This document shows, one piece after another, positions 39,523 through 42,841 of a DNA stretch of 64,000 nt (positions are counted from its first letter, which is position 1; the number at the start of each line of letters is the position of its first letter). Source of the stretch: Bacteroidota bacterium (GTDB lineage: Bacteria; Bacteroidota; Bacteroidia; JAHEXY01). The stretch spans positions 124,001 to 188,000 of the forward strand of contig JAHEXY010000006.1 in assembly GCA_023251875.1 (NCBI GenBank). The letters are read 5' to 3'. The notes beneath the pieces were generated by a model. That model saw only the letters and a program-made list of their open reading frames with translations. It had not been told where the DNA came from and searched no databases. The position numbers and the translations under genes are program-made.

Positions 39523-39555
39523 AAAAGGATCATCTTTTTTTAAGATGATCCTTTT
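39523..39555 (-). terminator. Terminator closing the SPFH operon
   Basis: Arms AAAAGGATCATCTT (39523-39536) and AAGATGATCCTTTT (39542-39555) pair perfectly over 14 bp with a T5 loop. It lies 31 bp after the last gene of the operon on the minus strand and separates it from the regulator gene at 39441. Confidence 0.85.
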
Positions 39556-39585: not shown

Positions 39586-40461
39586 CTATTTTTTATATTT
39601 CCTATTTCTGAATAATTTTTCGTAACCATCTTTAACTTCGCTGTTCCAGCCAATCATGTATTGTGTAAATCCACTAATTTCAAGTTCAGTTAAAGATGAA
39701 AATGGATTAACCATAACATCATTAGGAATACTATATTGGGCATAAGTTTTAGATTTACCCTTTCCGCTAACTTCAGGCGTATATAAATTGGCCGCTCCAA
39801 AAAGATTTAAAATTTCAAAAGCAAAAATACTAGCGTAATTAAAACTGTTAATCTCGTATTCAATATTCTCATTACTTGCTCTATTCATTGAAACTGAAAT
39901 TTGTTTACTTCTTTCGCCATTGAGCATAAAAAACAATACTACATTTTCTGTATGGTATTCATCTCTTAATAGAGCAATTAAACGTTCTGTATTGTTTGGC
40001 TTTGTAACATGAGGGAAACTATCCGTCCATACTTTTGTATCATACATATTGCCTACTAATTTCGAAACATTGTCCGACCATTTATTAATTTTATCCAAGC
40101 CTAATCCATTATTAATATTATACAAAGCATTGGATAATTTTTCCGGAAAATTTTTATCAATGGTTTGTTGTTTCTTAAAATATTCGAATCGAAAATTTAA
40201 GGGTATTTCTTCTTTAGTTGCTTTTTCTTTAATCCAATCCATTGCAATTTTTAATGAGTCGATTGTGCGGTTAACATCTTTTTGTTCCCAATTGGGCAAT
40301 TCTTTTATATCGACAAAAACAGCATAAACCAATACATCACCTCTTAGTTTTTTACATACATTGGCATTCATAGCCCAGCGATTGTCTGTATCTTTATAGG
40401 TAGCGCAAGAAGAAAGGCTTAATAATAGAATCAATAAATATATACTATAGAAATTTCTCAT
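39586..40461 (-). CDS. Lipoprotein with degenerate metallopeptidase-like motif, paralogue 2 of the SPFH operon
   Basis: A 291-residue predicted lipoprotein: signal with lipobox LSSC (Cys19), then ATYKDTDNRWAMN. The core has DVLVYAVFVDIKELPNWEQ (about 44-62), a long helix with DSLKIAMDWIKEKA, and strands ENVVLFFMLNG. The segment FEILNLFGAANLYTP (about 213-227) lines up with the AHEILHLFGAxDLY zinc motif that I recall from uncharacterised bacterial metallopeptidases, but both His are replaced (Phe and Asn). It closes with IPNDVMVNPFSSLTELEISG and YMIGW. It is the last gene of the SPFH operon, overlapping the preceding paralogue by 4 bp (ATGA), and is followed by a strong terminator. Function unknown; a pseudo-enzyme or ligand-binding role is inferred. 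Confidence 0.7.
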   Translation of the reverse strand: MRNFYSIYLLILLLSLSSCATYKDTDNRWAMNANVCKKLRGDVLVYAVFVDIKELPNWEQKDVNRTIDSLKIAMDWIKEKATKEEIPLNFRFEYFKKQQTIDKNFPEKLSNALYNINNGLGLDKINKWSDNVSKLVGNMYDTKVWTDSFPHVTKPNNTERLIALLRDEYHTENVVLFFMLNGERSKQISVSMNRASNENIEYEINSFNYASIFAFEILNLFGAANLYTPEVSGKGKSKTYAQYSIPNDVMVNPFSSLTELEISGFTQYMIGWNSEVKDGYEKLFRNRKYKK

Positions 40462-41372
40462 TTATACATTTTAATTTGCTTGTGGTTTTTATTGCTCTTT
40501 ACCATAATAAATAATTTTTCATATTCCGGATCAATTTTATTAGTCCAACCAATTAAATAGCGTGTGTAAGCACCTATTTCTAAAACAGAAAGCGGATCTT
40601 TATAATCAACCATTATATCTTTGGGAAATTCTTTTTGTGCAAAGCCCAGATATTGCACTTGCATTTTACTGAGTGAACTTGGTTGTAATGGGCTTGCTCC
40701 AAATAAAGTAATAATTTGCTGGGCAATTATTGAAGGATCTTTATAGCTGTTAATTCCGTATTCAATTTCATCATCGCTACCATAATTACAGGTTACGTAA
40801 GCATCTTGTATGTAATAATTATTCATCATAAAAAGTAACACCACACAATCCACTTGGTATTTCTTTTTAAGTTTAGAAACCAGTTTGCTTAAATTACTTT
40901 TAGGAATTCCGGGAGGTAATTTTTCTGTAGCAGAACTCCCCATACCCACCATTACTTTTTTAGCTAGCGCATTAGCCCACTTGTTTATTTTATCTGTTCC
41001 ATCTTTTACTTCGAGTGTAAAGCTTTTATAAAGCGATTTGTCAGGCAATTCCTTTTTTAAGGGAACAAATTTTTTGTTTGATTGGTAATAATCAAATTGA
41101 ATATTTAAGGGAACTCCTTCGGCATTGGCTTTTTCTTTTATCCAATCAACAGCATATTGAACAGAGTCAACTGCCGATTGTATATCATAACCCACCCAGG
41201 GTTTAGAAGTTTTAGAATCAACAAAAATAGTGTAAACCAGCACTTCTCCTTTTAATTTTTTACATTCATTTCTATTCATTGCCCAGCGGGTATCTACTCT
41301 TTTTGCCAAAAAACAGCTACTCAATGCTAAAACAATAATTGAAACAAGTAGAATAGGTATAAATTTTCTCAT
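40458..41372 (-). CDS. Lipoprotein with degenerate metallopeptidase-like motif, paralogue 1 of the SPFH operon
   Basis: A 304-residue predicted lipoprotein with lipobox LSSC (Cys20) and mature start FLAKRVDTRWAMN. It aligns with paralogue 2 throughout: GEVLVYTIFVDSKTSKPWV, VQYAVDWIKEKANAEGVPLN, VDCVVLLFMMNN, IEYGINSYKDPSIIAQQIITLFGASPL, FPKDIMVDYKDPLSVLEIG and YLIGWTNKIDPEYEKLF. At the position of an HExxH motif it reads AQQIIT (about 217-222), so no zinc ligand remains. The C-terminal tail (SNKNHKQIKMYK) is basic. Its ATG overlaps the stop of the SPFH gene by one base (TAATG), showing translational coupling. Periplasmic or outer-membrane anchoring is inferred from the lipobox without an acidic export stretch. 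Confidence 0.7.
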   Translation of the reverse strand: MRKFIPILLVSIIVLALSSCFLAKRVDTRWAMNRNECKKLKGEVLVYTIFVDSKTSKPWVGYDIQSAVDSVQYAVDWIKEKANAEGVPLNIQFDYYQSNKKFVPLKKELPDKSLYKSFTLEVKDGTDKINKWANALAKKVMVGMGSSATEKLPPGIPKSNLSKLVSKLKKKYQVDCVVLLFMMNNYYIQDAYVTCNYGSDDEIEYGINSYKDPSIIAQQIITLFGASPLQPSSLSKMQVQYLGFAQKEFPKDIMVDYKDPLSVLEIGAYTRYLIGWTNKIDPEYEKLFIMVKSNKNHKQIKMYK

Positions 41373-42544
41373 TATTCTTTTTTATCTGTATTTAATAATT
41401 TTACGCCCAATATACTTTCTAACATGGAAGCCTCTTTTCCATTACCTCCAGCCATATAAGTAGTAGGCAATTGAATTTTAGCTAAGGCTTCGGCAACACC
41501 AATTTTAGTATCCATTTCAAATTGGGCCTTTTGTTGAGGTGTTAAACCTGCAGTAACCATTTTAGAGTTTTTATAAGATTCAGCATCGGCATCCGTTTTT
41601 ATTTTTTGAGCCGCTAATATAGCAGTTTGTGCTTGTAATGCAGCTACTTCTTTTTCTTGTTCTGCTTGGGTAATGGCTTGTGCTTTTAAAACCTCTTGAT
41701 CCCATTTGGCTTTTGCTGCACTAGCTTTACCTTGTAATTCAGTAGTTATGGCATCTTGTTCGGCTTTTTTAGAGTTGGCAATTGCTGTTTGAACTTGCAT
41801 GTATGCTTCTTGTTGAACCTTAATTTGTTTTTCAACTTCATCATCATAATCAATAGCATTTAAGGCTAAGCCTTGCAAGTTTACATTGTATGTTTTTATT
41901 GCAGAAACTTCTTGACGAACCGGCAGATTATTATTTTGAACTATTTTTACTATAGTAACGGTTTTATCCGTATTCATTAAATCATCATGAATTTTAACAT
42001 CTTCCTGAATGGTTCTATAAACACCGTTAATAGATTGATCTTCGATATAAGAAAGTAAATCATTTCTTTTTTCGGCAGAAGATTCTTTTGACGACATCAG
42101 TGGCCCTGTCATATAAACGGATTTGGTAACAACTTGACGAATAAGCTGTTGCTCTATAGCTTCTTGTGAGCCAAAATCAGTATGTAGTTTTAAAATTGCT
42201 TTTTCGTCAGAAGGCATATACCAACGTACAGATCCGGAGATTTGAGCATGGCCTCCATCATTAAATCTAATTTTAATGGATTGGTCTTCCTTTTTACCTT
42301 CGTCACCCTCTTTACTAAACCAAAATTGATTTGATTTTTTGTAGTGTGTAGCAGTTCCAAAATTCTGAGTAACGGGGCCTGGCGATGTATAAACAGTTAC
42401 CTTACCCGTAAAGGCACTTTGCAGAATAACAATTTCAGAGTTATCTACGTTTTCAACTATCTTACCCGAAAGTAAAATAAAGGTGATAAATAATACTCCC
42501 AATCCAATTAAGAGTAATTTTTTTAGTGTAAAATTAGTGTTCAT
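41372..42544 (-). CDS. SPFH (band 7/prohibitin-like) membrane protein
   Basis: A 390-residue protein with one N-terminal membrane helix (about 9-27), preceded by KK. By the positive-inside rule the bulk is periplasmic, as in HflK/HflC. The SPFH domain covers about 30-225: VENVDNSEIVILQSAFTGKV, HAQISGSVRWYMPSD, EQQLIRQVVTKSVY and VKIVQNNNLPVRQE. A long Ala/Gln/Glu/Lys coiled coil (about 232-325) follows, then a short tail with IQLPTTYMAGG. SPFH proteins assemble into large membrane-bound rings or cages that organise proteases and membrane domains. No NfeD or FtsH gene is adjacent; instead the gene is coupled to two lipoproteins downstream and a small coiled-coil protein upstream (18-bp gap). 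Confidence 0.88.
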   Translation of the reverse strand: MNTNFTLKKLLLIGLGVLFITFILLSGKIVENVDNSEIVILQSAFTGKVTVYTSPGPVTQNFGTATHYKKSNQFWFSKEGDEGKKEDQSIKIRFNDGGHAQISGSVRWYMPSDEKAILKLHTDFGSQEAIEQQLIRQVVTKSVYMTGPLMSSKESSAEKRNDLLSYIEDQSINGVYRTIQEDVKIHDDLMNTDKTVTIVKIVQNNNLPVRQEVSAIKTYNVNLQGLALNAIDYDDEVEKQIKVQQEAYMQVQTAIANSKKAEQDAITTELQGKASAAKAKWDQEVLKAQAITQAEQEKEVAALQAQTAILAAQKIKTDADAESYKNSKMVTAGLTPQQKAQFEMDTKIGVAEALAKIQLPTTYMAGGNGKEASMLESILGVKLLNTDKKE

Positions 42545-42562
42545 CGTTTTTTGTTAAAAATA

Positions 42563-42841
42563 TTATTTTAATAGATTATCTGATTCATCTTTTAGTTGTT
42601 CCGCTGATTTAAAGTGTTCAGTAATTTCATTTTGTGTTTTTTTTACTTCTTCAACTTTATCTTTAGCTACCGCTATTTTTTCATCCAATGATTCTTTGTT
42701 TATTATTTGTTTTTTTTCTTTAGCATTTAATTTTCTAAATGAACCAAATAATGGTTTATTTAAGAGGATGGGTAAAAAAAATTCAGTAATGGAAACCAAT
42801 ATTATGGCTAGCACTACTATTAATTCAATTGTTCTCCACAT
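42563..42841 (-). CDS. Small membrane protein with cytoplasmic coiled coil, first gene of the SPFH operon
   Basis: A 92-residue protein: one membrane helix (about 6-28, IELIVVLAIILVSITEFFLPI), a basic stretch (FRKLNAKEKK, about 35-45), then an acidic/basic heptad-like region (about 50-92, EKIAVAKDKVEEVKKTQNEI) likely to form a coiled coil. The basic residues after the helix place the C-terminus in the cytoplasm, opposite to the predicted side of the SPFH protein. It begins the operon and is separated from the SPFH gene by only 18 bp. I know no named family. A role as membrane partner or cytoplasmic handle of the SPFH assembly is inferred from the operon. The upstream gap to 43097 shows no clear promoter. 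Confidence 0.65.
   Translation of the reverse strand: MWRTIELIVVLAIILVSITEFFLPILLNKPLFGSFRKLNAKEKKQIINKESLDEKIAVAKDKVEEVKKTQNEITEHFKSAEQLKDESDNLLK

Follow-up and report, generated by a model that had tools for sequence, protein, structure and literature searches.

The minus-strand operon of four genes at 39586..42841 of the window (the 64,000-nucleotide stretch of a Bacteroidota genome that was analysed) is probably a fusion, specific to its lineage, of two modules that are independent of each other and have two genes each. One consists of a small transmembrane (TM)/coiled-coil protein and an SPFH protein that would form a ring, the other of a pair of lipoproteins that would not cut. This reading follows from two observations: the lipoproteins are missing from SPFH loci elsewhere, and an orthologous lipoprotein pair exists in genomes without this type of SPFH protein.

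Layout of the operon and fold of the SPFH protein

The operon is composed of the following features, given in gene order:

42563..42841, minus strand: small TM/coiled-coil protein gene (ORF of 92 aa)
41372..42544, minus strand: SPFH protein gene (ORF of 390 aa)
40458..41372, minus strand: lipoprotein A gene, lipoA (ORF of 304 aa)
39586..40461, minus strand: lipoprotein B gene, lipoB (ORF of 291 aa)
39523..39555, minus strand: terminator-like hairpin with a 14-bp stem that closes the operon

The junctions are an 18-bp gap, a TAATG (1-bp overlap), and an ATGA (4-bp overlap), and the hairpin region folds with −19.4 kcal/mol (z = −4.1 against shuffles). ORFs, junctions, and terminator hairpin are all as an earlier note on this DNA had described them. 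The two overlaps suggest coupled translation and speak for a genuine unit of four genes in this genome. The spacing by itself points to one transcript for the four genes; a scan for sigma-70 promoters at the operon gave fewer sites than in shuffles and none that was convincing. GC and GC3 are close to those of the neighbours, with the small gene being somewhat AT-richer, so that recent foreign DNA was rejected as the origin of the operon. A prophage location was likewise rejected given the flanks, where a BatA-like and a gyrB-like gene and the genes of a sigma-54 regulator and an M16 peptidase are located.

The SPFH protein comprises an N-terminal TM helix (residues 7–26), the SPFH domain, a helix of about 98 residues (235–332), and a disordered tail. 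Its AlphaFold model (pLDDT 82) has the SPFH domain followed by the long helix that characterizes the SPFH/Band 7 superfamily. It matches known SPFH structures in Foldseek (erlin, prohibitin, HflK/C, QmcA, and stomatin, with E values down to 8e-10), which identifies it as a genuine SPFH protein. The Pfam Band_7 score of 19.9 bits lies under the cut-off of 23.6, which is a detection threshold and no structural feature of the superfamily. As the predicted fold is clear, the low score is read as divergence; 69 of 83 members of the family match Band_7 at E ≤ 1e-3. In 82 of 84 relatives, more positive charge lies on the N-side of the SPFH TM helix than on its C-side; the bias of the small protein is the opposite in 67 of 81. 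These charge patterns fit the proposed topology, in which the SPFH domain is predicted to lie outside the inner membrane in the periplasm and the coiled-coil tail of the small protein in the cytoplasm.

The predicted N-in orientation with a periplasmic SPFH domain is shared with the HflK/HflC–FtsH complex, whose structures 7wi3 and 7vhq are fold matches. The operon differs from it by having one SPFH gene instead of two, and the identity over the structural match is only about 11–15%. No FtsH-like gene was found among the operon's neighbours. In the SPFH–NfeD pairs (QmcA–YbbJ and FloA–NfeD), the SPFH gene likewise adjoins a dedicated gene for a small membrane protein, but the partner in the window lacks an NfeD domain and has a single TM helix and a coiled coil that is predicted to be cytoplasmic. 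The QmcA–YbbJ structure 8z5g also matches the fold of the model. According to PMC13086221, where it is named YbbK–YbbJ, this complex protrudes into the cytoplasm, whereas the SPFH protein of the window is predicted to face the periplasm. NfeD was found neither in the operon nor, at E ≤ 0.01, in the whole genome, in a search that was positive for 12 of 14 control genomes. Of the proposal that the lipoproteins replace the usual NfeD or FtsH partner, one part holds, namely that the small protein and the SPFH protein form a unit with no NfeD beside it; the lipoproteins as the partner are not supported.

The small membrane partner in phages and genomes

The small protein contains one TM helix, a juxtamembrane motif (TEFFLPILLNKPLFGSFRK), and a charged coiled coil that is predicted to be cytoplasmic. 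It forms a conserved pair with the SPFH protein. At 78 of 98 SPFH loci (23/25 viral and 55/73 genome loci), the SPFH start is directly preceded by the end of a short ORF whose product has an N-terminal TM helix, compared to 7% (31/435) of other long genes from the same DNA; near-copies among Bacteroidales loci were counted separately, and the counts are not fully independent. The gene-neighbourhood test that had been put forward for the four-gene system, whether SPFH homologues are usually unaccompanied, thus comes out in favor of the small protein and against the lipoproteins, which accompany none at the other loci examined. At about 20% of the SPFH loci, above all in Nitrospirota, the small protein is absent or undetected. 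The scan accepted ATG starts only and therefore has some misses; the small protein of the Yanofskybacteria locus L071 starts with GTG. Small proteins often show a TQ...P...LFP.FR motif, and the looser pattern TQ...P.......F..F is present in 47 of 81 and in 4% of shuffled sequences. IPFY takes the place of the TQ-type pattern in 19 of 81, mostly in the crAss/Bacteroidales branch. The partner in the crAss001 pair Gp92–Gp91 (L004:5709-7137) ends in IPFYYW, as do those at Bacteroidales loci such as L118 and L076. The aligned small proteins share no family in Pfam or PHROG.

SPFH relatives also occur in phages. A tblastn search of phage records gave 36 matches, among them a 462-kb uncultured phage (59% over residues 26–300), crAss001 Gp91 (37%), and T5-like Vibrio phages (25–28%). 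Gp91 and phrog_11908 (E 6e-38) belong by sequence to the same family as the SPFH protein of the window; further phage SPFH/Band 7 genes named for comparison are those of T4-like and RaK2-like phages. Phage SPFH genes have been mentioned without a function (PMC1524935, PMC7760394), and neither the paired small gene nor the conserved two-gene module was found described in the literature on them. In IMG/VR, 20 contigs carry a relative. In the best of these, L011 (74% identity), genes for a tail sheath and for a head maturation protease of the ClpP type lie no more than 2 kb from the SPFH gene. On several large-phage contigs (L016–L022), an AAA ATPase gene is found together with the small protein and SPFH genes, often with a thioredoxin-like gene before the set or a TM protein after it. 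A plasmid copy from Skermanella rosea (L007:5866-8123) has the SPFH gene followed by a gene for a 62-aa TM protein, and a restriction-modification pair lies nearby.

When 84,980 genomes of bacteria and archaea were scanned, 77 SPFH loci were obtained, 13 of which are from Bacteroidota at about 80% identity. The remaining loci are from Bacteroidales, Patescibacteria, Nitrospirota, Verrucomicrobiota, Acidobacteriota, Obscuribacterales, and two archaeal bins. Some of the 77 loci may be phage contigs inside bins; others, L043, L045, L049, L058, and L100 among them, lie between genes that are usual for a chromosome, and the flanks are also chromosomal in the close Bacteroidota genomes. Phage and genome sequences are interleaved in the SPFH tree, with 11 label changes, at least nine of which are forced by well-supported branches. 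The window sequence and those of 11 Bacteroidota genomes form a clade that is sister to phage L011 (99 SH-aLRT), and the gene was apparently inherited within this clade. Neither the sharing of the SPFH gene with phages nor the degenerate peptidase-like nature of the lipoproteins was part of the earlier note.

A lipoprotein pair without the zinc motif

LipoA and lipoB each carry an L-S-S-C lipobox in their sequence and, as had been noted, are paralogs (40% identity over 289 residues). Their relatives in a class-wide search of Bacteroidota are mostly single genes that carry HEFLHLFGAxDLY. In a phylum-wide sample the lipoproteins were found only in this genome (G000) and in G193; a class sample was needed to detect the family. 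HExxHxFGxxD is present in family members of 13 other genomes and in a third copy in this genome (L041:1468-2388; G000:C20:20338-21087), whose zinc motif is intact (HEILHVFGAADLY) and whose start resembles a signal peptide and lacks a lipobox. At the aligned site, lipoA reads QQIITLFGASPL (QQIITLFGASP) and lipoB FEILNLFGAANL (FEILNLFGAAN). Both have lost the motif and retain a Met-turn-like motif, which is DIM in lipoA and DVM in lipoB.

The intact family members share HExxHxxGxxD and a downstream Met-turn-like motif with metzincins (M12B, reprolysin-like); lipoA and lipoB differ from metzincins by the loss of the HExxHxxGxxH/D zinc motif. Matches of the family to the reprolysin clan of Pfam recur but are weak (E 0.004–0.01), and no Pfam model scores above its cut-off. 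A PDB profile search with the family gave nothing useful. The lipoA model (pLDDT 43) is too poor to serve as proof; metzincins are prominent among its top 50 Foldseek matches, all of which have E ≥ 0.25. Taken from the sequences, the motif, the Met-turn-like residue, and the weak reprolysin matches suggest a putative peptidase (metzincin) fold, and lipoA and lipoB look like proteins derived from a zinc peptidase that have lost the active site. With neither of them having the zinc ligands, their role would be binding and not cleavage.

The genomes G461 and G639, both from another taxonomic family, contain a tandem A–B pair that lacks the motif and is not accompanied by an SPFH gene of this type. 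LipoA of the window clusters with their A copies (95/96), and lipoB clusters with their B copies (87/92), so the lipoprotein pair appears to be older than its link to the SPFH gene.

Relation between the two modules

When lipoA and lipoB were searched against the collected SPFH loci by tblastn, they were found only in this genome. None was present at the 77 genome loci, the 20 viral contigs, or the annotated phage and plasmid loci that were examined, nor did a search of phages, plasmids, and viral contigs return any. From the 13 genomes with an SPFH protein of about 80% identity the lipoprotein family is absent altogether, with one match (E = 0.008) inside a 622-aa frame being taken as spurious. 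Conversely, the genomes that have the family either lack this type of SPFH protein or encode a distant one on another contig. These searches, in genomes from outside the order of this one, speak against the four genes as one conserved system and do not support the lipoproteins as the partner of the SPFH protein.

The small protein and the SPFH protein would contact each other and most likely form a ring in the inner membrane, with its wall on the periplasmic side. The TM helix and the juxtamembrane motif of the small protein would pack into the base of the ring, while its coiled coil would extend into the cytoplasm; the small protein would fill the role that NfeD has for other SPFH proteins. 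The lipoproteins most likely are non-cutting binders that face the periplasm. Through translational coupling, the four proteins would be made together in this genome, and with such coupled production the ring may corral the lipoproteins or their clients. Contact between the two modules is speculative, and recruitment of the lipoproteins by the ring is possible, with its support confined to this genome.

How the modules came to lie together can be explained differently. The adjacency might be a recent operon merger and nothing else, without functional consequence, which deserves serious consideration even if it is not the expected outcome. It is favored by the separate existence of the modules everywhere else sampled, but the stop–start overlaps suggest coupled translation, beyond what read-through would need. 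Another explanation is a single complex of all four proteins, in which, as the earlier note proposed, a periplasmic SPFH ring recruits the lipoproteins. These might be pseudo-peptidases that hold substrates and take the place of FtsH or NfeD. The single direction, the short gap and overlaps, and the one terminator fit such a complex, as does the periplasmic face that is possible for the SPFH domain and the lipoproteins alike; SPFH complexes often hold proteases, as in the E. coli FtsH–HflKC structures. A single complex is nevertheless unlikely, given that no other SPFH locus has the lipoproteins, that genomes with the most similar SPFH proteins lack the family, and that the orthologous A–B pair occurs elsewhere without this SPFH type.

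A distinctly unlikely origin for the first module is a phage-derived pair that the host keeps as a membrane guard, for example against DNA entry by related phages or as a buffer of membrane damage in the course of infection. Outside the Bacteroidota clade no sequence is closer than that of phage L011, the pair is frequent in phages, and a restriction-modification system lies near the plasmid copy. On the other hand, a PADLOC search gave no match, and the pair lies on chromosomes and seems to have been passed down within the clade. Highly improbable, finally, is a periplasmic chamber in which an SPFH ring exchanged with phages and the dead peptidase-like lipoproteins would bind clients without cutting them and rival or regulate the intact paralog.

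Under the favored reading of two fused modules, the small protein and the SPFH protein provide a simple two-gene unit for testing. SPFH genes of unknown use occur in phages from crAss001 to huge phages, and an SPFH family with a specific small partner in phages and many phyla offers a handle on binding partners. The lipoproteins are an example of peptidase-like proteins that occur as a pair, are probably inactive, and are kept across Bacteroidota families.

Other Bacteroidota encode a more distant and longer SPFH type of about 450 aa (L032–L038, L166, and L167), for which no small partner was found at L033 and L036. In the Yanofskybacteria locus (L071:5676-9814), ORFs judged by eye to be secD- and secF-like lie downstream of the pair. 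The genome of the window has five SPFH genes, of which those outside the operon are located on other contigs.
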